Below, piece by piece: positions 3,095-56,483 of a stretch of 64,000 nucleotides of DNA (position 1 is the stretch's first letter; every line of letters begins with the position of its first letter). The notes beneath the pieces are model-generated. The model ran no database searches. It saw only the letters and a program-made list of their open reading frames with translations, and was not told the origin of the DNA. The DNA is from Blastochloris tepida (lineage in GTDB: Bacteria; Pseudomonadota; Alphaproteobacteria; Rhizobiales; Xanthobacteraceae): contig NZ_AP018907.1 of the NCBI RefSeq assembly GCF_003966715.1, positions 3,088,001 through 3,152,000 on the forward strand. Reading direction: 5' to 3'. Made by a program: the position numbers and the translations under genes.

Positions 3095-5521
<2,427 letters not shown>

Positions 5522-46672: not shown

Positions 46673-48172
46673 CTACTTCAGACCCAGCTTTGCCCAAATC
46701 GCATCGACCACCGCCTCGGTGTCCGACGACATCTTCAGCACCCGGCCGTATTCGCGCTCGGTCTCGGTGCCGATCTTGGTGGTGGCGTCGATGCCGAGCT
46801 TGCCGCCGAGCCCGGCCTTGGGCGAGGCGAAGTCGAGATAGTCGATCGGCGTGTCGGTGAGCACCAGCAGGTCACGCGAGGGGTCGGAGCGGGTCGCCAC
46901 CGCCCACATCACGTCCGACCAGTCGCGCGCCTTCACATCGGCATCCACCGCGATGATCAGCTTGGTCATGGTGAACTGCGGCAGCACGCTCCACAGCGCC
47001 ATCATCAGCCGCCGCGCATGACCGGGATAGGATTTCTTGAACGCCACCACGGCGATGCGGTAGGAGCACGCCTCCGGCGGCAGCCAGACGTCGACGATCT
47101 CCGGGAACTGCCGTTTCACCACCGGAATGAACATCTCGTTCATCGCCGCCCCCATCACCGAGGGCTCGTCGGGCGCGCGGCCGGTGAAGGTGGAGAGATA
47201 GAGCGGCTTCGCCTTGCGGGTGATGGCGGTGACCCGCATCACCGGGAACTCCTCCACCGAATTGTAGTAGCCGGTATGGTCGCCGTAGGGGCCTTCCGGC
47301 GCGGTCTCGGTGGCCGACACCACGCCCTCGATCACGATCTCGGCATCGGCCGGCACCATCAGCGGCACGCTGACCGCCTTGGTCAGGCGCGGCCGTTCGC
47401 CGCGCACCAGCCCGGCGAAGGTGAGCTCAGAGATGCCCTCGGGCAGCGGCATCACCGCCGACAGCATGGTGCCTGGGTCGGTGCCGATCGCCAGCGCCAC
47501 CGGCATGTCGCGCCCCTGCGCCTGCCAACGGCGGAAATGCTGGGCGCCGCCGCGCATGGAGAGCCAGCGCATGATCAGCCGGTCCGGCCCCAGCACCTGG
47601 ACGCGGTAGACCCCAACATTGGCGTGGGTGGCCTCGAACTCGCCGGGCGGGCAGGTGATCACCAGCGGCCAGGTGATCAGCGGCGCCGGCTCGTCCGGCC
47701 AGCAGGTCTGCACCGGGATCTGGGTGACGTCGACGTCCGCCCCGGTGATCACCACCTCCTGCACCGGTGCCGAGGAGGTCTCGGCCGGGCGGGTGCGCAG
47801 CGCGGCGCGGGCGAGCGGCAGCCGATCTATCAGATCGCGCAACGAGTTCGGCGCCGAGGGGCTGCGCAGCTCGGCCAGGGCTTCGCCGAGCGGGCGCAGA
47901 TCCTCCGGCCCGATGCCGAAGCCCAGCGCCACCCGCTCCACCGTGCCGAACAGGTTGGTCACCAGCGGAATGGTGGAGATGGTGCCGTCGGCGCGGATCG
48001 GGCGCTCGAACACCAGCACCGGCCCGCCCTTCTCGATCACCCGGCGGTGGATCTCGGTCACCGTATGGACGGTGGAGATCGGCTCCTTGATGCGGTGGAG
48101 CTGGCCCTTTCCCTCCAGGAAGGTCAGGAAGGCGGGCAGGTCGCGAAAGGGGGGCAGGCTGCGGATGGGCAC
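46673..48172 (-). CDS. ubiD: UbiD-family prFMN-dependent decarboxylase
   Basis: 499 residues. Typical UbiD features are FRDLPAFLTFLEGKGQLHRI, TNLFGTVERVALGFGI, ETAPEGPYGDHTGYYN, LPPEACSYRIAVVAFKKSYP, VDADVKARDW and GLGGKLGIDATTKIG. UbiD removes the carboxyl group from 3-polyprenyl-4-hydroxybenzoate using prenylated FMN made by UbiX. GTG at 48172 was chosen because AGAGGATCACCCC precedes it and the protein then starts at PIRSLPPFRD. It is divergent from ubiTUV, so a decarboxylation and hydroxylation block for ubiquinone sits here. Confidence 0.93.
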   Translation of the reverse strand: MPIRSLPPFRDLPAFLTFLEGKGQLHRIKEPISTVHTVTEIHRRVIEKGGPVLVFERPIRADGTISTIPLVTNLFGTVERVALGFGIGPEDLRPLGEALAELRSPSAPNSLRDLIDRLPLARAALRTRPAETSSAPVQEVVITGADVDVTQIPVQTCWPDEPAPLITWPLVITCPPGEFEATHANVGVYRVQVLGPDRLIMRWLSMRGGAQHFRRWQAQGRDMPVALAIGTDPGTMLSAVMPLPEGISELTFAGLVRGERPRLTKAVSVPLMVPADAEIVIEGVVSATETAPEGPYGDHTGYYNSVEEFPVMRVTAITRKAKPLYLSTFTGRAPDEPSVMGAAMNEMFIPVVKRQFPEIVDVWLPPEACSYRIAVVAFKKSYPGHARRLMMALWSVLPQFTMTKLIIAVDADVKARDWSDVMWAVATRSDPSRDLLVLTDTPIDYLDFASPKAGLGGKLGIDATTKIGTETEREYGRVLKMSSDTEAVVDAIWAKLGLK

Positions 48173-48286
48173 GGGGTGATCCTCTGCGAAGACCTGAGGC
48201 CTTAGGCCGCGCGTTCGGGATTGGCAACTTGGTGCGCACAGGGCAATGCTGCCATGCCCGGTGAATCCCGTAATGGCGCGAAGGGA

Positions 48287-48300
48287 TTGATCTGTGCCAA
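48287..48300 (+). promoter_or_regulatory. FNR/FixK-like site upstream of ubiT
   Basis: TTGATCTGTGCCAA matches TTGAT-N4-ATCAA fully in the left half and three of five in the right. If this is a class II site, transcription would start near 48335, and TACACG at 48323-48328 would be the -10. That leaves a short leader to GTG 48354 or 48366 and argues against the GTG at 48294, which lies inside the site. Confidence 0.65.
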
Positions 48301-48353
48301 ACCGCCCGCTGCCGTTTGCGGGTACACGTCCGCCCCACCCGCCAACCATCAGT

Positions 48354-48923
48354 GTGACAGAGCCCGTGACCGACCTCCCCGTTCTGCACCCCTTTGTCCG
48401 CCTGCTCGCCAGGCCGCTGCCGCTGACGCCGCTCGAATGGGGCGTCGCCGCCAGCCTGACGCGCGTGTTCGCCCGGCACACCGGCATGTTCGACCGCCTG
48501 GGCGAGAACGCCTTCAAGCGCTACGGCATCGAGCCGACCGACCTGCCCTTCGCGTTCATCCTGACGCCCGATCCGGCCGGCCCGCGCATCGAGGCGGTGC
48601 GCAGCCTGAAGGGGCATGATGTCGCGGCCCGCATCGCCGGCCCGTTCCTGGTGCTGCTCGACATGGTGCGCGGCCGGCTCGACGGCGACGCGCTGTTCTT
48701 CTCGCGCGACATCGTGGTCGAGGGCGACATGGAGGCGGTGGTGGCGCTGCGCAATGCGCTCGACGCCGAGGCGGTCGACATCGTCGTCGAGACCGCCCAT
48801 GCCTTCGGCCCGGCCTCGGGCCTGGTGACGCACGGCGCCGACCTCGCCGAGCGCTTCGCCCGTACCTTCCTGGTCGCCGGCGGCGATCGCCAGGCGACAC
48901 CCCCCCGGGAGAGCACGCCATGA
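48354..48923 (+). CDS. ubiT: UbiT, SCP2-domain accessory factor for oxygen-independent ubiquinone synthesis
   Basis: 189 residues from GTG 48354 (GTG 48366 also possible). An SCP2 lipid-binding fold: PLPLTPLEWGVAASLTRVFA, HTGMFDRLGENAFKRYGI, AARIAGPFLVLLDMVRGRLD and DALFFSRDIVVEGDMEAVVA. E. coli UbiT (174 residues) is essential for making ubiquinone without oxygen and carries the lipid intermediates. The start is placed by the promoter argument given for 48287-48300. The stop TGA overlaps the ubiU start (ATGA). Confidence 0.88.
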   Translation: MTEPVTDLPVLHPFVRLLARPLPLTPLEWGVAASLTRVFARHTGMFDRLGENAFKRYGIEPTDLPFAFILTPDPAGPRIEAVRSLKGHDVAARIAGPFLVLLDMVRGRLDGDALFFSRDIVVEGDMEAVVALRNALDAEAVDIVVETAHAFGPASGLVTHGADLAERFARTFLVAGGDRQATPPRESTP

Positions 48924-49918
48924 GACCTGCCAAGGGATCGCTCGAACTCGTCTGCCCCGCCGGCACGCCCGCGGCGCTGGACGCCGCCGTCGCCGCCGGT
49001 GCCGACACCGTCTATTGCGGTTTCAATGACGAGACCAACGCCCGCAACTTCCCCGGCCTGAACTTCTCGCGCGCCGAGTTGGCCGACAGCATCGCCCGCG
49101 CCCATGCGCGCGGCTGCAACGTGCTGGTGGCGATCAACACCTTCCCGCGGGCCGGCGACATCGACCTGTGGCACCGCGCCATCGCCGACGCCGAAGCCGC
49201 GGGCGCCGACGCGGTGATCCTGGCCGATCTCGGCCTGCTCGCCCACGCCCGCGAGAAGCACCCCAATCTGCGCCTCCATTTGTCGGTGCAGGCGGCGGCG
49301 GCCAATCCGGACGCCATCCAGTTCTACGTCAAGCAGTTCGGCGTCGAGCGGGTGGTGCTGCCGCGCGTGGTCACCGTCGAGGAGATCGCCGCCATCCACC
49401 GCGAGATCACCTGCGAGACCGAGGTGTTCGTGTTCGGCGGCCTGTGCGTGATGGCCGAGGGGCGCTGCCTGCTCTCCAGCTATGCCACCGGCAAGTCGCC
49501 CAACATGCACGGCGCCTGCTCGCCGGCCGGCTGCATCTCCTACCGCGAGGAGGGCTCGACCTTCGTGTCGCGGCTGGGCGAGTTCACCATCAACCGGGTA
49601 ACCAAGGGCGAGCCCGCGGCCTATCCGACGCTGTGCAAGGGCCGCTTCGTCATCGACGGCAAGGCCACGCACGTGTTCGAGGACCCGGCGAGCCTCGATG
49701 CCTCCCAGCTTCTGCCCGGCCTCAAGGCGGCCGGCGTCAAGGCGCTGAAGATCGAGGGCCGGCAGAGAAGCCGCGCCTATGCCGACGCGGTGGTGAAGGC
49801 GTTCCGCCAGGCGGTCGATGCGCTCGACCGCGGCCTGGAGATCCGCGCCGGGGCGCTCGCGGCCCTCACCGAGGGCGGCGCCACCACCGGCGGCGCCTAC
49901 CGCAAGACGTGGCGCTGA
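48920..49918 (+). CDS. ubiU: UbiU, U32-family oxygen-independent hydroxylase subunit
   Basis: 332 residues, U32 peptidase-type fold. It begins LELVCPAGTPAALDAAVAAG and has the conserved cysteines for a 4Fe-4S cluster: GGLCVMAEGRCLLSSYATG, HGACSPAGCISYR and YPTLCKGRF. UbiU forms a heterodimer with UbiV, which hydroxylates the ubiquinone ring under anoxia using prephenate as oxygen donor. Overlaps ubiT by four bases and is 11 bases ahead of ubiV. Confidence 0.92.
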   Translation: MRPAKGSLELVCPAGTPAALDAAVAAGADTVYCGFNDETNARNFPGLNFSRAELADSIARAHARGCNVLVAINTFPRAGDIDLWHRAIADAEAAGADAVILADLGLLAHAREKHPNLRLHLSVQAAAANPDAIQFYVKQFGVERVVLPRVVTVEEIAAIHREITCETEVFVFGGLCVMAEGRCLLSSYATGKSPNMHGACSPAGCISYREEGSTFVSRLGEFTINRVTKGEPAAYPTLCKGRFVIDGKATHVFEDPASLDASQLLPGLKAAGVKALKIEGRQRSRAYADAVVKAFRQAVDALDRGLEIRAGALAALTEGGATTGGAYRKTWR

Positions 49919-49929
49919 GAGTTCCGCTC

Positions 49930-50850
49930 ATGAGTACCAACACGATGAAGCTGTCCCTCGGGCCGGTGCTGTTCAACTGGCCCAACGACATCTGGAGCGA
50001 TTTCTACGCCCGCGTCGCCGACGAGATGCCGGTCGAGCGCGTCTATGTCGGCGAGGTGGTGTGCTCCAAGCGCGAGCCGTTCCGCGAGCAGGCGATGGGT
50101 GAGGCGGTCGAGCGCCTGCAGCGCGCCGGCAAGGAGGTCGTGCTCTCCACCCTGGCGCTGGTCACCCTGCCGCGCGAACGCCACCGGGTGGTGGCGACCG
50201 CCGAGGACTGGACCGGTCTGGTCGAGGCCAACGACATCACCGCCGTCTCGGCGCTGGCCGGCCGGCCGTTCGCGGTCGGGCCGCTGGTCAATGTCTACAA
50301 TGAAGGCACGATGCGCACGCTCGCCGGCTTCGGCGCCAAGACCGTGTGCCTGCCGCCGGAGCTGCCGCTGACCTCGATCGCGGTGATCGCCAAGGCGGCG
50401 GCCGGCCTCGACGTCGACACCGAGCTGTTCGCCTTCGGCCGGGTGCCGCTCGCGGTCTCGGCGCGCTGCTACCACGCCCGCGTCCACGGCCTGCACAAGG
50501 ATTCCTGCCAGTTCATCTGCGCCCAGGATCTCGACGGCCTCGCCGTCGACACGCTGGACGGCGAGCGCTTCCTGGCGGTCAACGGCATCCAGACCATGTC
50601 GCAGACCTATGCCAACCTGCTGGCCGACGTGCCGGCGCTCAAGGCGGCGGGCGTCACCGCGCTGCGGCTGTCGCCGCACGCCTGCGACATGCTGGCGGTG
50701 GCCAAGCTCTTCCGCGAGGTCGCCGACGGCGCCCGCGACGGGGCGGAGGCCACCACCGCGCTGCAGGGGCTGATCGGCAACGCGCCGATGTCCAACGGCT
50801 TCCTGCACGCCATTCCAGGCGCCCGCTACCAGTTGCGCGCGCAGGCGTGA
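49930..50850 (+). CDS. ubiV: UbiV, U32-family oxygen-independent hydroxylase subunit
   Basis: 306 residues. It begins LSLGPVLFNWPNDIWSDFYA; the cluster cysteines are in YVGEVVCSKREPFRE and SARCYHARVHGLHKDSCQFIC (three Cys), as in E. coli UbiV. Partner of UbiU. GINGIQ-like (FLAVNGIQTMSQTYANLL) and ALRLSPHACDM are family stretches. The operon ubiTUV ends with a clear terminator 43 bases downstream. Confidence 0.92.
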   Translation: MSTNTMKLSLGPVLFNWPNDIWSDFYARVADEMPVERVYVGEVVCSKREPFREQAMGEAVERLQRAGKEVVLSTLALVTLPRERHRVVATAEDWTGLVEANDITAVSALAGRPFAVGPLVNVYNEGTMRTLAGFGAKTVCLPPELPLTSIAVIAKAAAGLDVDTELFAFGRVPLAVSARCYHARVHGLHKDSCQFICAQDLDGLAVDTLDGERFLAVNGIQTMSQTYANLLADVPALKAAGVTALRLSPHACDMLAVAKLFREVADGARDGAEATTALQGLIGNAPMSNGFLHAIPGARYQLRAQA

Positions 50851-50993: not shown

Positions 50994-51182
50994 GTGAACA
51001 CGCAAGAGTTCCGAAAGTGGCTGGCTGCCCAGGGCTGCACCTTCGAGACCAAGAAGGGCGGCTCGGGACATCTCATCGTCCGCCGCGGCGACCGCAAATC
51101 CGAACTGCCGATGCACGGCGGGCGCAAGGAGCTCGGCACGGGCCTCGTCAACGCGATCAAGAAGCAGTTGGGGTTGAAATGA
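50994..51182 (+). CDS. hicA: HicA-type mRNA interferase toxin
   Basis: 62 residues. It begins MNTQEFRKWLAAQGCTFETK and continues GGSGHLIVRRGDRKSELPMH, where the His of GHL is the likely catalytic residue of the double-stranded RNA-binding-like fold. It ends KELGTGLVNAIKKQLGL. HicA cleaves mRNA and stops translation unless bound by HicB. GTG at 50994 fits the family start (MxSxEFxxWL); GTG at 50976 would add six residues and lies within the operator. Confidence 0.88.
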   Translation: MNTQEFRKWLAAQGCTFETKKGGSGHLIVRRGDRKSELPMHGGRKELGTGLVNAIKKQLGLK

Positions 51183-51604
51183 TGCTCGAATACGGGATCA
51201 GGCTCACGCCCGACGACAACGGCACCCTTCTGGTGACCTGTCCGCAGCTTCCAATCGTCGCCACCTTCGGCGAGACCGAAGACGACGCCCGCCGGCACGC
51301 CGCCGAGGCGATCGAGACCGCCCTCGCCAGCATGATTGACGACGGCGAGCCGGTCCCCCGGCCCGTTCTTCAGGAAGATGTCACCATCCGCCTGCCGATG
51401 ATGACCACGCTGAAGGTCAATCTCTATTGGGCGTTGGCGGATGCCGGCATCACTCGCGCCGAACTGGCGCGCCGACTGGGCTGGAAGCGCGAGTCGGTCG
51501 ACCGGCTGTTCCGGCTCAACCACCGCTCCCGGCTGGAGCAGATCGAGGCGGCTTTCCAGGCGCTCGACCGCGCGCTGGAGGTCGAGGTCCGGCCGGCTGC
51601 GTGA
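51179..51604 (+). CDS. hicB: HicB-type antitoxin with C-terminal helix-turn-helix
   Basis: 141 residues. The N-terminal HicB fold (2-70: LEYGIRLTPDDNGTLLVTCP, ETEDDARRHAAEAIETALAS) has the degenerate RNase H shape that covers HicA. The C-terminus (about 82-135) is an XRE-like helix-turn-helix (LYWALADAGITRAELARRLG, WKRESVDRLFRLNHRSRLEQ). Overlaps hicA by four bases (ATGA), the usual toxin-first order for hicAB. The DNA-binding part presumably acts on the dyad at 50948-50979. Confidence 0.9.
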   Translation: MMLEYGIRLTPDDNGTLLVTCPQLPIVATFGETEDDARRHAAEAIETALASMIDDGEPVPRPVLQEDVTIRLPMMTTLKVNLYWALADAGITRAELARRLGWKRESVDRLFRLNHRSRLEQIEAAFQALDRALEVEVRPAA

Positions 51605-51784
51605 GGCCGCCCGCAGGCCGTTTCGGCTGATGCAGCGTCGCACGTCCGCCTCTCGCCCCGGGGCAAAAAACGTCCCGGTTGCGACTTTGCGTGCACTCAA
51701 GCCCGTGCCAGATTGCGCTTCCGTGATTGAACCAAATCTGCGGCTCGCGCGTCCAACCTGCGAGCGGACGACATCGGAGCTTGC

Positions 51785-52345
51785 ATGACGGCGAGTTCGG
51801 ACGAGGCGCTCATCCTGAGGATCGCCAATGGCGACCGGATGGCCATGCAGGTGCTGTTCGCCCGGCATCAGGTCAAGGTGTTCCGGTTCGTCCTGCGGCT
51901 GATCGGCAACGAGGCCGCGGCGGAGGACGTGATCAGCGAGGTGTTTCTCGACGTGTGGCGTAATGCCGGCCGCTTCGAGGCGCGCTCCAGCGTCTCGACC
52001 TGGCTCTTGGCCATCGCCCGCAACAAGGCCTACTCGGCGCTGCGGCGCCCCAGGTCGGAAGAGCTGGACGAGGCCAAGGCCGAGACGATCGAGGATACCG
52101 GCGATGACCCCGAAGTCGCTGCCCAGAAACGGGACAAGAGCGAGCTGCTTCGCGACTGCATCCAGCGGCTGTCGGTGGATCATCGCGAAGTGATCGATCT
52201 GGTCTACTACCATGAGAAAACGATCGAGGAGGTCGCCGAGATCGTCGGAATTCCGGAGAGCACCGTCAAGACGCGCATGTTCTATGCGCGCCGGAAGCTC
52301 TCCGAAATGCTGCAGGCGGCCGGAATCGATAGGGGTTGGCCATGA
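51785..52345 (+). CDS. ECF-type RNA polymerase sigma factor
   Basis: 186 residues. Region 2 (about 20-90: LFARHQVKVFRFVLRLIGNE, AEDVISEVFLDVWRNAGRFE) and region 4 (about 120-175: LRDCIQRLSVDHREVIDLVY, EEVAEIVGIPESTVKTRMFY) are intact, with no extra domains. Controlled by the overlapping anti-sigma gene (ATGA). Target promoters unknown; it probably also transcribes its own operon. The subtilase gene that follows marks a rarely described type of ECF locus. Confidence 0.92.
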   Translation: MTASSDEALILRIANGDRMAMQVLFARHQVKVFRFVLRLIGNEAAAEDVISEVFLDVWRNAGRFEARSSVSTWLLAIARNKAYSALRRPRSEELDEAKAETIEDTGDDPEVAAQKRDKSELLRDCIQRLSVDHREVIDLVYYHEKTIEEVAEIVGIPESTVKTRMFYARRKLSEMLQAAGIDRGWP

Positions 52346-53010
52346 CCGGGTTGAAGGACGAGCGCGTCGCAATCGATGAGCTGTTGCCGTGGTACGCCAC
52401 CGGCCGGCTTCCTGCCGCCGAGGCCGCCCGCGTCGAGGCCGCGCTTCGCGCCGACCCCGAGCTTGCGCGCCGGCTCGATCTGGTCCGCGACGAGTTCGGC
52501 GAGACCATCCGGCTCAATGAGCGGCTCGGCGCCCCGTCCACCCACGCGATCGAGACGCTGTTCGCCAAGATCGACGCCGAGCCGAAATATCCCCTGGCGA
52601 CGCCGGGTGGTCTCGCCTCGCGCCTGTCGGAATGGCTGGCGGCGCTGGCGCCGCGCACGCTGGCGCTGGCGGTCACCGCCGCGGCGCTGGCGCTGGTGGT
52701 GCAGGCCGGCATCATCGGCTCGCTCTTGATCGAGGACCGGCCGGCGGGCTTTTCCACCGCGTCCGCCCCGACCGCCGAGCCGCAGGGCGGCAGCTTCGTC
52801 TTGGTCGGCTTCACCGAGACGGCCACCGCCGCCCAGGTGCTGGCGTTCCTGAAGGCCAATAATGCCGTCATCGTCGATGGTCCGCGCGCCGGCGGCCTGT
52901 TCAAGCTGCGCGTATCGGCCGAGCGGCTGCCGCCCGAGGATCTCGACAAGCGCGTCAAGCGCCTTGCCGCCGACCGCACGCTGGTGCGGCTGGCGGCACC
53001 GGTGCAGTAA
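52342..53010 (+). CDS. Membrane anti-sigma factor with propeptide-like periplasmic domain
   Basis: 222 residues. The cytoplasmic part (1-100) is helical (IDELLPWYATGRLPAAEAAR, VEAALRADPELARRLDLVRD), the shape of an anti-sigma domain but without the zinc-binding His/Cys set. A membrane helix is at about 106-130. The periplasmic part (about 151-219) has the strand-helix-strand-strand-helix-strand order SFVLVGF, TAAQVLAFLKAN, AVIVDGP, LFKLRVS, DLDKRVKRLAAD, TLVRLAAP. This order matches the N-terminal (prodomain-like) region of the neighbouring subtilase (VLVEVG, TPAQIAGIERRL and so on). ATG at 52342 overlaps the sigma stop. Confidence 0.78.
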   Translation: MTGLKDERVAIDELLPWYATGRLPAAEAARVEAALRADPELARRLDLVRDEFGETIRLNERLGAPSTHAIETLFAKIDAEPKYPLATPGGLASRLSEWLAALAPRTLALAVTAAALALVVQAGIIGSLLIEDRPAGFSTASAPTAEPQGGSFVLVGFTETATAAQVLAFLKANNAVIVDGPRAGGLFKLRVSAERLPPEDLDKRVKRLAADRTLVRLAAPVQ

Positions 53011-53083
53011 ATTCGCGTGGACCGACGCAACGTGTGACAGTGACGACCAGGGCAACGCGCGCCGAGACAGCGAGGAGATGGCG

Positions 53084-54637
53084 ATGTCCCGACCCCGAAT
53101 CCGTGCGCTTCGGCGCTCTGCCATTGTCGCCATCGCCGTGCTGGCCCTGATTGGCCGGGCCGGCGAGTCCGCCGCCCAGACCAACTACGAACGAGAGAAT
53201 CCCTTCTCGGGCCGGTCCGGCGGCCACAGCGGCGGCAGCAATGCCACGGGCGTGGCGATCGGCATCGGCGCGGCCTTGGCGATCGGCGCCCTGATCGCCG
53301 CCTCCCAGTCCCAGGCGGCAACGCGGCCGGGCGGCGAGGAGGACGATTGGCGCGGCAATGTGCGAGACAATCCGCCGCCGCGCTCGTTCCATCACACGCC
53401 CACGCCGCCGCCCAATCCGCCCTCCCCGCCGTCGTCCGCCGCTCCGCCGCAGGCGCCGCGCTTCACCGTCGCCCGCGGCGAGACCCGGTTCGTGCCCAAT
53501 GAGGTGCTGGTCGAGGTCGGCCGCGGCGTCACACCGGCCCAGATCGCGGGCATCGAGCGGCGGCTGAAGCTGGTCCGGCTGTCAGAGGAGACCTTCGTGC
53601 TGGCCGGCCGCACCCTCTATCGCTACCGCATTGCCGACGGCGCCAGCGTGCCGGCGGTGCTGGCGGCGCTGTCGCGCGAGCGGCGGGTCGCCTCCGCCCA
53701 GCCCAACTACCGTTTCAGCACCCCGCGCGCGACCTTCAAGCTGGCCGCGGCCGGCGGGTCCGCCGCGATCATCGACCCCTCGCTGCTCTATGCGCCGCGG
53801 GCGCTTCGCCTGCCGGAGGCGCATCAGGTGGCGCGCGGCGACAAGGTGCTGGTGGCATTGATCGATTCCGCCGTCGATCCGGCCCATCCGGAGCTTGCCG
53901 GGGCGCTCGCCAAGAGCCTCGATGTCACCGGCACCGACGGGACGGCGGCGCCGCACAGCCACGGCACCGGCATGGCCGGCGCGCTCGCCGCCCGCGCCCA
54001 GCTCGTCGGCGTCGCGCCTGGGGCCTCGCTCATCGCCATCACCGCCTTCCGGCCGGAGGGCGAGGGGGCCGGCGGCACCACCGTCACCGTGCTGCGGGGG
54101 CTCGATGTGGCGTTCGCGGAAGGCGCGCGGGTGGTCAATATGAGCTTCGCCGGCCCGAATGATGCGCTGCTGGGCCGGGCGCTGGCGGGCGCGCACGCGC
54201 GCGGCCTGATCCTGGTGGCGGCGGCCGGCAATGCCGGGCCGAAATCGCCGCCGCTCTATCCGGCGGCCGACCGCAACGTGATCGCCGTCACCGCCACCGA
54301 CGCCGACGACAAGGTGTTCGATCAGGCCAATCGCGGCCGCCACGTCACCATCGCCGCGCCGGGCGTCGATGTGCTGGTACCGGGGCCGGAGGGCGCCTAC
54401 GCCTTCACCTCGGGTACTTCGGTTGCCGCCGCCCATGTGTCGGGCGTGGTGGCGCTGATGCTGGAGCGCGACCCGACGCTCTCGGCCGACGCGGTGCGTG
54501 CCGCGCTCGCCGCCTCGGCGCGCGACCTCGGCCGCAAGGGCCGCGACGACGTCTATGGCGCGGGCGAGGCCGATGCCAACGCCGCCGTGCGGCAGTTCGA
54601 CAAGCGCACCGCCACGCCCGCCGTGCCGCAAAGATAG
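53084..54637 (+). CDS. S8-family (subtilisin-like) serine protease of an ECF operon
   Basis: 517 residues. Signal peptide (about 1-31). A Gly/Ser-rich segment with a second hydrophobic stretch (52-75), a Pro-rich linker (95-125), a prodomain-like region (about 138-210), and the S8 catalytic domain: Asp261 (VALIDSAVD), His293 (HSHGTGM), Asn383 (AAGNAG) and Ser446 (SGTSVAAAHVSG). It is therefore a secreted or membrane-tethered active subtilase. ATG at 53084 has GAGGAG at a six-base distance; ATG at 53078 is too close. 73 bases after the anti-sigma gene. Ends one base before the convergent folK gene. Confidence 0.9.
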   Translation: MSRPRIRALRRSAIVAIAVLALIGRAGESAAQTNYERENPFSGRSGGHSGGSNATGVAIGIGAALAIGALIAASQSQAATRPGGEEDDWRGNVRDNPPPRSFHHTPTPPPNPPSPPSSAAPPQAPRFTVARGETRFVPNEVLVEVGRGVTPAQIAGIERRLKLVRLSEETFVLAGRTLYRYRIADGASVPAVLAALSRERRVASAQPNYRFSTPRATFKLAAAGGSAAIIDPSLLYAPRALRLPEAHQVARGDKVLVALIDSAVDPAHPELAGALAKSLDVTGTDGTAAPHSHGTGMAGALAARAQLVGVAPGASLIAITAFRPEGEGAGGTTVTVLRGLDVAFAEGARVVNMSFAGPNDALLGRALAGAHARGLILVAAAGNAGPKSPPLYPAADRNVIAVTATDADDKVFDQANRGRHVTIAAPGVDVLVPGPEGAYAFTSGTSVAAAHVSGVVALMLERDPTLSADAVRAALAASARDLGRKGRDDVYGAGEADANAAVRQFDKRTATPAVPQR

Positions 54638-54638
54638 T

Positions 54639-55142
54639 CTACCTGCCTCGCCGCACGATGCCGCCGGTATCGAGTTCGGCCAGCGCGTCGCCCACCCGCC
54701 GGCCGGCGATCACCCGGTCGGGAGCAATCTCGGCCAGCGGCACCAGCACGAAGGCGCGCTCGAACAGCCTCGGGTGCGGCAGCACGAGGCCCGGCTCGTC
54801 GAGGTTCAAATCGTCATAGGCGAGAATGTCGATGTCGATCGGCCGCGGCCCCCAGCGCGGCCCGGCCTCGCGCACCCGGCCGAGCCGGCGCTCGACGCCC
54901 AGCGCCGTCTCCAGCAGCGCCCGCGGCGTCAGCGTGGTTTCCACCAGCGCGCAGCGATTGACGAACATCGGCTGGTCGATGAGACCCCAGGGCGGCGTCA
55001 GCCAGTCGGAGGAGACGCGCAGAGGGCGCACGCCGCCCTCCGCCAGCAGCACCAGCGCCCGGTCGAGCGTCGCCGGCACGTCGCCGAGATTGCCGCCAAG
55101 CCCGAGGATCGCCTCGACGGACCGCGGCGGGCTCTCCGTCAT
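54639..55142 (-). CDS. folK: 2-amino-4-hydroxy-6-hydroxymethyldihydropteridine pyrophosphokinase
   Basis: 167 residues. HPPK marks: LGLGGNLGDVPATLDRAL, SSDWLTPPWGLIDQPMFVN, RALLETALGVERRLGR, RWGPRPIDIDILAYDDL and LPHPRLFERAFVLVPL. The enzyme pyrophosphorylates the pterin before it meets p-aminobenzoate. Last gene of folP-folB-folK on the minus strand; one base between its start and the folB stop region (55144). Confidence 0.95.
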   Translation of the reverse strand: MTESPPRSVEAILGLGGNLGDVPATLDRALVLLAEGGVRPLRVSSDWLTPPWGLIDQPMFVNRCALVETTLTPRALLETALGVERRLGRVREAGPRWGPRPIDIDILAYDDLNLDEPGLVLPHPRLFERAFVLVPLAEIAPDRVIAGRRVGDALAELDTGGIVRRGR

Positions 55143-55143
55143 G

Positions 55144-55527
55144 TCAGGACCGCGAGCGGCGGCGCACCAGCGTCACGCCGACATCGGCGAACACCGCTTC
55201 CAGCGGCGCGTTGGGCTTGTGCACGGTGACGCGCACGCCCTCGAGCTTGGCGAAGGCGGCGAGCAAAGCATCGGCCACCGCAGCGGCGGCGGCCTCCACC
55301 AGCTTGAAGCGCCGGCTGCAGAAGGCGTCGCGCGCCACCTCGACGATCGTGTCGTAGGAGGCGGTGTCCTCCAGCCGGTCGCCGGCTGCGGCGGTGGAAA
55401 GGTCGAGCTCCAGCACCAGATCGAGCACGAAGCGCTGGCCGAGCTTGGCCTCGAAGGCATGGCAGCCGTGGAAGGCGTGCAGCGTCAGGCCGGTGATGAA
55501 CAGCCGGTCCCCGGCATGCCCGCTCAT
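55144..55527 (-). CDS. folB: Dihydroneopterin aldolase
   Basis: 127 residues. T-fold enzyme: FITGLTLHAFHGCHAFEAKL, GQRFVLDLVLELDLSTAAAG, TASYDTIVEVARDAF and VRVTVHKPNAPLEAVFADVG. Catalytic Glu in HAFHGCHAFEAKLGQ and Lys in VHKPNAP are present. It makes the hydroxymethyl-pterin used by FolK. ATG overlaps the folP stop by two bases (ATGA). An upstream extension of the frame is a shadow of folP. Confidence 0.94.
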   Translation of the reverse strand: MSGHAGDRLFITGLTLHAFHGCHAFEAKLGQRFVLDLVLELDLSTAAAGDRLEDTASYDTIVEVARDAFCSRRFKLVEAAAAAVADALLAAFAKLEGVRVTVHKPNAPLEAVFADVGVTLVRRRSRS

Positions 55528-56390
55528 CGCGCGGCCTCGAGGGCAGCGGCCACCCGCAGCGCCTGCACCGTCTCGAACACGTCGTGCACCCGCACGATGC
55601 GCGCGCCCGCTGCCACCGCCGCCAGATTGGCGGCGAGCGAGCCGCCAAGCCGCCGCTCGACCGCAGCCGGCGACACCGCGTCGATGAAGCGCTTGCGCGA
55701 CAGGCCGATCAGCAGCGGCCGGCCGAACACCGTGAATTCGGCGAGCCGGGCGATGGCGGTGAGGCTCTGGGCCGGCGTCTTGCCGAAGCCGATGCCGGGA
55801 TCGAGCACGATGCACTCCGGCCGGATGCCGGCGCGCGCGGCGATCTCCAGCGAGCGGTCGAAGAAGCGCTCAATGTCGGTGACGATGTCGATGTCGGGCT
55901 CGACCGTCTCGCGGTTGTGCATCACCACCACCGGCACGCCGTGCTCGGCGGCGACGCGGGCCATGTCGGGGTCGCGCTGCAGGCCCCACACGTCGTTGAG
56001 CATGGCCGCGCCGGCCTCCAGCGCGCGGGCGGCCACCGCAGCCTTCATGGTGTCGACCGACACCGGAATGCCGAGGCCGACCGCCGCCGGCAGCACCGGG
56101 GCGAGCCGCGCCCATTCCGCCTCGGCCGAGACCGGCTGGGCATCGCCATAGGGGCGGGTGGATTCAGCGCCGATGTCGAGAATGTCGGCGCCCTCCGCCT
56201 GGATCGCGCGGGCGCGGGTGCTGGCGGCGTCGGGCGTATCGAACCGGCCGCCATCCGAGAATGAATCGGGCGTGACGTTGAGGATGCCCATCACCAGCGG
56301 CCGGCGCGCGGCGAGCGCGCGGTCGAACCAGGACGAGTCGGCCGCCCGAACCGGCGGCGCTGCGGAACCGGGAGGGCAAGCAAGCGACAT
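55524..56390 (-). CDS. folP: Dihydropteroate synthase
   Basis: 288 residues. TIM barrel with MGILNVTPDSFSDGG (pyrophosphate/pterin binding), LDIGAESTRPYGDAQPVSAE, SVDTMKAAVAARALEAGAAM, LNDVWGL, VVVMHNRE and the pABA-site LLIGLSRKRFID and DPGIGFGK. Target of sulfonamides. ATG at 56390 gives the expected N-terminus; a longer frame overlaps the upstream gap. First gene of folP-folB-folK, with coupled start/stop overlaps. Confidence 0.96.
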   Translation of the reverse strand: MSLACPPGSAAPPVRAADSSWFDRALAARRPLVMGILNVTPDSFSDGGRFDTPDAASTRARAIQAEGADILDIGAESTRPYGDAQPVSAEAEWARLAPVLPAAVGLGIPVSVDTMKAAVAARALEAGAAMLNDVWGLQRDPDMARVAAEHGVPVVVMHNRETVEPDIDIVTDIERFFDRSLEIAARAGIRPECIVLDPGIGFGKTPAQSLTAIARLAEFTVFGRPLLIGLSRKRFIDAVSPAAVERRLGGSLAANLAAVAAGARIVRVHDVFETVQALRVAAALEAAR

Positions 56391-56483
56391 GGCGCCGCTT
56401 TGCGGCTCCCTCGCGCCGAAGTCAAGCGGCCGATAAGGACGAGACTCGGCCGCTGCCGCGCCGCCGCCCAAGCACGCGCCGTT

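Follow-up and report, generated by a model that had tools for sequence, protein, structure and literature searches.

We describe an operon in a window of 64,000 nucleotides from Blastochloris tepida (contig NZ_AP018907.1, positions 3,088,001 to 3,152,000), which encodes, in this order and all on the + strand, an extracytoplasmic function (ECF) sigma factor, a membrane anti-sigma factor and an S8 subtilase. Comparison of sequence profiles leaves little doubt about the homology of the anti-sigma factor's C-terminal domain to the prodomain of the subtilase; the linkage of domain and subtilase is conserved in the order, and triads of the three genes are found also outside the class. ECF anti-sigma factors are very common and the signal that they sense is mostly unknown; here the sensor domain points to a likely ligand, the protease encoded alongside it, and suggests that the cell monitors this enzyme by way of a decoy of the enzyme's lid. 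If true, this would be a general rule for a type of operon whose anti-sigma factor turned up in 71 of the 249 genomes sampled from the order and which occurs also outside the class. Protease maturation would join the signals that bacteria may read across a membrane, and the system would form a bacterial parallel to the eukaryotic subtilase that serves as a site-1 protease, S1P of SREBP. The prodomain has been reused in the anti-sigma factor, perhaps as a receptor.

Homology of the anti-sigma domain to subtilase prodomains

An earlier note on this DNA had reported overlapping sigma and anti-sigma genes followed by an S8 protease gene, and had likened the periplasmic end of the anti-sigma factor to the N-terminal region of the protease. 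The gene arrangement is borne out by the coordinates, the ATGA overlap and the Pfam matches (Table 1), and the motifs quoted for the likeness are placed as described (VLVGF at 153-157 and LFKLRV at 186-191 of the anti-sigma factor; VLVEVG at 143-148, TPAQIAGIE and LYRYRI in the subtilase). The resemblance is not provable by eye, because BLASTP shows the stretch behind the note (anti-sigma residues 153-166 against subtilase residues 143-156) only at an E value of 20; comparison of the two window proteins alone gave no significant match, the best (E 0.69) lying elsewhere in the proteins. Profiles of close relatives only were too weak alone, hhalign returning a global probability of 8 and a local probability of 56 (E 1.1e-4). 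Larger profiles were made by adding 81 anti-sigma factors and 79 subtilases from the surveyed loci to the close relatives, and the comparison of 202 anti-sigma factors with 197 subtilases then reached a probability of 94.75 and a score of 39.2 over 65 aligned columns, with an E value of 5.5e-8 that refers to one single profile-profile comparison. Column-shuffled profiles, 150 in number, scored 9.4 on average (standard deviation 1.9, maximum 22.2) and the reversed profile 13.5. In sliding windows, high scores were confined to overlap of the prodomain with the C-terminal domain, and windows missing both scored 14.8 or less.

Profile-profile comparison places the domain with prodomains of the type of PF22148, the Fervidolysin N-terminal prodomain. 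This curated family was matched at E<=1 by 11 of 43 varied anti-sigma factors, that of the window being one of the 43 (best E 6e-6), and by 18 of 41 linked subtilases (best E 2.5e-7). It exceeded its own cut-off of 21 bits in three anti-sigma factors (L123, 21.8 bits; G037/L122, 22.8 bits; G712/L145, which is also L167, 26.4 and 24.7 bits; L and G are our handles for loci and genomes). The third of these came from scanning 299 phylum genomes with PF22148, independently of the alignments of this analysis, and its locus is again an operon of sigma factor, zinc-type anti-sigma factor and subtilase. The 27 matches of that scan comprised two anti-sigma factors, three small stand-alone proteins and 22 frames of at least 511 amino acids. 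For the window anti-sigma factor itself no Pfam match was listed in the C-terminal region up to a limit of E 10, PF22148 not being reached; HMMER filters drop most matches above E 0.1. Inhibitor I9, which we take to be PF05922 and which the earlier note had named as a suitable type of profile, was not among the matches of the window protein at that limit, nor among the 25 families listed of the 38 matched by the 43 anti-sigma factors at E<=1. A search of the Protein Data Bank (PDB) with the anti-sigma profile gave three matches, which were rejected as chance (best E 0.66).

The three small proteins with PF22148 (L152, G725 contig 121, 4419-4631; L153, G702 contig 18, 3325-3555; L147, G604 contig 125, 34795-34971) look exported, have little beyond the prodomain or have it at their end, and directly adjoin a large subtilase. 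The subtilases beside L152 and L153 have a prodomain match of their own. These stand-alone prodomains are perhaps trans inhibitors or chaperones.

Predicted fold and extent of the domain

AlphaFold predicts for both regions the beta-alpha-beta-beta-alpha-beta order that had been claimed for them. In the anti-sigma factor the strands lie at 151-157, 176-179, 186-192 and 215-221 and the helices at 163-172 and 198-209, with predicted local distance difference test (pLDDT) values of 88-94 by block and 76 for the last two residues; in the subtilase the strands lie at 138-147, 165-173, 178-185 and 204-215 and the helices at 153-162 and 191-198 (pLDDT 95-98 by block, the last 84). The anti-sigma domain is accordingly predicted to have the ferredoxin-like fold of subtilase prodomains, and its best fold match (VIA-align 2) is a subtilase prodomain. 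For the structural part of the earlier interpretation, the presence of a prodomain-like domain in the anti-sigma factor, there is support from profile homology, from a curated Pfam family, from the predicted structure and from the survey of loci given below.

With PF22148 (Fervidolysin_NPro-like), pro-Tk-subtilisin and the subtilisin propeptide the domain shares its order of strands and helices, a full-length profile alignment and a proline at the end of beta4. Unlike subtilase prodomains it is membrane-tethered, bears a signature of conserved G180-P181 (98% each) and F157 (99%), and has no active-site tail. The anti-sigma factor ends right after beta4, exactly four residues past residue 218 being found in 150 of 202 proteins, and its end aligns near QPNY of the subtilase in the profile alignment. 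The C-terminal tail of known propeptides fills the active site, and the end of the anti-sigma factor would fall about five residues short of their reach to the S1 pocket. Since nothing follows beta4 but the end of the protein, and the next gene holds the S8 domain, the anti-sigma factor has a prodomain-like domain and not a propeptide of its own protein, in cis to a catalytic domain and with its tail in the active site. Inhibition strictly in the manner of a propeptide is less likely, because the protein stops at the end of beta4, without the tail that would fill the active site.

Conservation of the operon

Scoring of 8000 candidates yielded 220 anti-sigma homologues. The anti-sigma profile matched 13 of 289 genomes of the class and 71 of 249 genomes of the order, with the B. 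tepida genome counted in each. Excluding that genome, we fetched 71 loci from 70 genomes of the order (one genome has two) and nine of the 12 other class matches, leaving out G178, G274 and G081. The domain calls in these loci rest equally on alignments and on a hidden Markov model (HMM) built from an alignment that contains the same order and class loci. The domain is present in every one of the 71 order loci, and a subtilase in the fetched stretch of 66. Contig ends truncate four of the others (L065, L077, L086 and L094); in the fifth, L119, no subtilase lies within about 3 kb. The nine class loci are all full triads. Gene order varies, the subtilase lying upstream of the sigma gene in some loci (L066, L076, L093), as on plasmid pRX1 of Methylocapsa polymorpha, and divergent from the anti-sigma gene in others (L114, L117, L129).

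A search of the same 249 genomes with the sigma factor only (E<=1e-30) found 77 places in 67 genomes, and in 68 of these a domain-bearing anti-sigma gene stands beside the sigma gene (in G302 it is split over two contigs). A subtilase gene is adjacent in 65 of the 68, in 64 within the same fetched stretch and in G302 upstream of the sigma gene (L180); in the other three (G387, G452 and contig 280 of G326) the contigs end 974, 240 and 341 bases past the anti-sigma gene, so that these are undecidable. One triad, L166 (G454), had been missed by the anti-sigma search. Wherever the sigma factor has its anti-sigma factor, therefore, the domain is present and the protease nearly always too, and the earlier idea of a mimic prodomain withstands the comparison of homologous loci. 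The remaining nine places (L157-L165), all within the family to which the window belongs, hold sigma paralogs of 50-56% identity with neither this anti-sigma factor nor a subtilase adjacent; several of them lie, by eye, near ccdA-like and thioredoxin-like genes.

With 12 distant anti-sigma factors as query, 64 of the 299 phylum genomes matched. All ten new full-length matches were opened: eight are triads, six of them outside the class (G610 twice, G653, G703, G731 and G777; five genomes, four families) and two in the same order, and two have the domain without a subtilase (L223 in G734, L225 in G714). Among the 23 best partial matches, whose anti-sigma factors lack the domain by HMM, a subtilase is nearby in two (L232, L236). 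The association of domain and subtilase in these sets has a Fisher p of 1.3e-4, not corrected for relatedness; L235 was coded as lacking the domain by HMM, its tail appears by eye to be a diverged copy, and recoding it gives 8/11 against 2/22. A caspase-like C14 gene adjoins the anti-sigma gene of L223 (G734, 3453-4307, minus strand; PF00656, E 2.2e-39), and another is seen, by eye only, near L225.

Linker, membrane helix and catalytic residues

Between the membrane helix and the prodomain-like domain lies the motif [YF]xTAS, conserved among the anti-sigma factors at [YF]137 (87%), T139 (77%), A140 (86%) and S141 (72%). Most linker positions around it are variable (0.8-1.4 bits), and residues 131-144 are predicted to be disordered (pLDDT<50). 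Within the putative transmembrane helix, Q121 is conserved at 90%. The catalytic residues of 200 aligned subtilases are D in 200/200, H in 200/200, S in all 191 that have a letter there and N in 191/193; letters are missing in nine proteins at Ser and seven at Asn, and two have other residues at Asn. As the triad and the oxyanion Asn are intact, the partner subtilase should be an active protease. The genome also encodes an M50 protease, of the site-2 type.

A proposed mechanism and its alternatives

We propose that the anti-sigma factor would keep the ECF sigma factor at the inner membrane and show, in the periplasm, a decoy relative of the subtilase prodomain. The subtilase would be transcribed together with the sigma and anti-sigma genes, leave the cytoplasm as a zymogen, fold with the help of its prodomain and then lose it, and the mature enzyme would dock on the decoy as on its own prodomain. 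The blocking tail of known propeptides would begin some five residues beyond the end of the decoy, so that docking would leave the active site partly open. In a ferredoxin-like topology beta1 starts next to where beta4 ends, and the linker would therefore enter near the active site. The docked subtilase could then cut the juxtamembrane [YF]xTAS linker at site 1, and RseP-type site-2 proteolysis would free the sigma factor. We infer positive feedback, as we do docking and linker cleavage.

The starting points of this mechanism were computed: domain homology, predicted fold, gene order, linkage, conserved catalytic residues, a conserved linker motif and an M50 protease. For binding, inhibition or cleavage by the subtilase, the support consists of genomic linkage, the conserved catalytic residues and the conserved juxtamembrane motif. 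That the domain binds its partner subtilase is rather probable, since binding would explain most plainly why a prodomain-like domain accompanies a subtilase from locus to locus. A further step from binding to linker cleavage and sigma release, one of several outcomes, is possible and somewhat doubtful. The account of decoy docking and linker cleavage as a whole falls a little short of an even chance. Its most specific form is offered tentatively, and with slightly more reserve than cleavage as such: the anti-sigma factor may be a dedicated receptor derived from a duplicated prodomain, export, folding and self-activation of the subtilase may be the signal, and the docked enzyme may be the site-1 protease that cuts [YF]xTAS.

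Several observations weigh against the proposal. The pair in the window is itself undetectable without profiles, and of the 27 PF22148 matches from the 299 genomes no more than two are anti-sigma factors, so that the domain lies far from the core of that family. This subtilase is not known to have a cleavage specificity predicting TAS. Three loci (L119, with no subtilase within about 3 kb, L223 and L225) have the domain without the protease. Conversely, a subtilase search that matched 100 of the 249 order genomes at E<=1e-40 led to 12 strong subtilases outside triads (L168-L179), close paralogs with the same prodomain; the seven in full context have no ECF gene, and the other five are cut by contig ends, with no ECF gene in the remaining sequence. 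Seven weaker subtilase places (weaker than 1e-128) were also opened (L181-L187), and in these the subtilase gene diverges beside another ECF pair, the anti-sigma factor of which has a different, cysteine-bearing periplasmic domain that is not prodomain-like. Together with L232 and L236, which share the divergent subtilase gene and the other periplasmic domain with conserved Cys, they appear to resemble the ECF26 arrangement. A subtilase can therefore be linked to an ECF pair whose anti-sigma factor lacks the prodomain-like domain. In mirror-tree comparisons of 73 loci the C-terminal domain had a partial r of 0.35 with the catalytic domain (cytoplasmic domain 0.27) and of 0.04 with the subtilase prodomain (cytoplasmic domain 0.22); these correlations are small, mixed and without a null, and are not used as evidence.

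The loci that have the domain or an ECF-linked subtilase, one without the other, suit an alternative in which the C-terminal domain, though derived from a prodomain, is an old sensor with a ferredoxin-like fold that recognizes a different ligand, and the subtilase is a mere target gene of the sigma factor, much as overexpression of RpoE6 in Sinorhizobium meliloti raises the divergent SMa0142 (PMC6180224). We regard it as rather unlikely: it leaves unexplained why the sensor domain should be homologous to the prodomain of its linked protease, and why domain and subtilase should be associated inside and outside the class. The anti-sigma factor might instead act in trans, tethered to the membrane, to inhibit the subtilase or help it fold, so that the dose of protease matches that of anti-sigma factor; the sigma factor would then answer to a different signal and be freed by a different site-1 protease. 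Binding of subtilisin in trans is known for propeptides and for POIA1, a free inhibitor that resembles them, POIA1 structures (PDB 1v5i and 1itp) are among the fold matches of the anti-sigma domain, stand-alone PF22148 proteins occur beside subtilases (L147, L152, L153), and the genes here are adjacent on one strand. But the anti-sigma factor stops, in 150/202 proteins, before the tail with which known propeptides enter the active site, the subtilase retains a prodomain of its own, and the conserved juxtamembrane motif would have no explanation, all of which make this idea unlikely, a shade more so than the foregoing. The chance occurrence of two unrelated ferredoxin-like folds in adjacent genes is very improbable, given a profile score that none of the 150 shuffles comes near and that is confined to the prodomain, a curated prodomain family above its cut-off in three anti-sigma factors, and a subtilase prodomain as the best fold match.

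Comparison with known systems

In the RseA-DegS-RseP sigma-E pathway a transmembrane anti-sigma factor is cut at a periplasmic site 1 and then at site 2. Unlike the system proposed here, that pathway employs DegS, an HtrA protease acting via its PDZ domain, and has no prodomain mimic. The nearest precedent is RsiV, the anti-sigma-V factor of Bacillus subtilis, which acts on an enzyme as both receptor and inhibitor, the enzyme being lysozyme (PMC5014341). In both cases the extracytoplasmic domain of an ECF anti-sigma factor would grip an enzyme and convert its presence to transcription. RsiV differs in that it binds the active-site pocket of lysozyme and its binding is proven, while the partner proposed here is the protease of the same operon, to whose own prodomain the domain is homologous.

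The ECF26 system RpoE6-EcfR6 of S. meliloti, in which sigma overexpression raises the divergent serine protease gene SMa0142, likewise links ECF, anti-sigma and serine protease genes in Alphaproteobacteria (PMC6180224); it is unlike the window operon in its divergent arrangement, and in its lookalikes L181-L187, presumably ECF26, the anti-sigma factors carry another periplasmic domain. ECF54 also has a subtilase near the ECF gene, its context being a subtilase, CHAT or carboxypeptidase with proteolytic control proposed (PMC8999054); unlike the window operon, it has no anti-sigma factor. Searches of PMC3420878 (Bradyrhizobium ECFs) and PMC7406223 for protease terms gave no relevant passage. No description of a subtilase prodomain in an anti-sigma factor came up in a literature search by title and start of abstract, which left most subscription papers outside its reach.

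Features of the operon and its surroundings

Blastochloris sulfoviridis is a close relative, with 91% identity in the anti-sigma factor and 92% in the subtilase. The sigma factor belongs to the NCBIfam subfamily NF009168. The anti-sigma factor has the layout of a class I membrane anti-sigma factor, an N-terminal anti-sigma domain beside an ECF sigma factor being followed by one predicted transmembrane helix, and from this assignment it would be expected to bind and inhibit the sigma factor. Its match to zf-HC2 at residues 11-36 is weak (E 0.0015, under the cut-off), that of relatives is above the cut-off, and the window protein has no zinc site because it contains no cysteine. The subtilase gene begins after a gap of 67 bases, and its product consists of a signal-like helix (residues 7-25), a long stretch predicted to be disordered, the prodomain and the S8 catalytic domain.

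Table 1. Features of the operon, in positions of the window.
Feature	Positions	Strand	Evidence or remark
ECF-type promoter-like site TGAACC-N16-CGTC	51728..51753	+	upstream of sigma gene
ECF sigma factor, 186 aa	51785..52345	+	Sigma70_r2/r4_2 matches; NF009168 303.5 bits, cut-off 236
Membrane anti-sigma factor, 222 aa	52342..53010	+	ATG start; ATGA overlap with sigma stop
Anti-sigma N-terminal domain, residues 1-80	52342..52581	+	four predicted helices between 3 and 79
Hydrophobic helix, putative transmembrane segment, residues 104-129 of anti-sigma factor	52651..52728	+	predicted helix and hydrophobic sequence
Conserved [YF]xTAS motif, anti-sigma residues 137-141	52750..52764	+	candidate site-1 cleavage or recognition site, a putative function
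Subtilase-prodomain-like C-terminal domain of anti-sigma factor, residues 150-222	52789..53007	+	profile comparison, PF22148, predicted fold
S8 subtilase zymogen, 519 aa	53078..54637	+	ATG start; Peptidase_S8 E 4.7e-41
Subtilase prodomain, residues 133-215	53474..53722	+	
Subtilase catalytic domain, residues 254-496	53837..54565	+	D263, H295, N385, S448

The promoter-like site starts 57 bases ahead of the sigma gene. The pattern TGAAC-N14..18-CGTC, picked after viewing the window sequence, is present upstream of 8 of the 81 sigma genes compared; 200 shuffles gave 0.56 on average and 3 at most. The eight include the window and B. sulfoviridis L001, and also L078, where the site lies at -8, an unlikely position; the GGAAC form occurs in 0 of the 81. 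This distribution fits autoregulation in some members only and does not establish it for the group.

A HicB-like antitoxin gene (51176-51604; PF15919, 32.3 bits, cut-off 27) lies a short way upstream of the operon. Further upstream, an SCP2 gene is followed by two U32 peptidase-family genes (48294-50850), with a UbiD-like gene, recognized by eye, on the opposite strand (46673-48517); together these resemble what is presumably the ubiT-ubiU-ubiV cluster of oxygen-independent ubiquinone synthesis. On the other side of the operon, folK/folB/folP-like genes, also recognized by eye, occupy the minus strand at 54639-56471 and are convergent with the subtilase gene.

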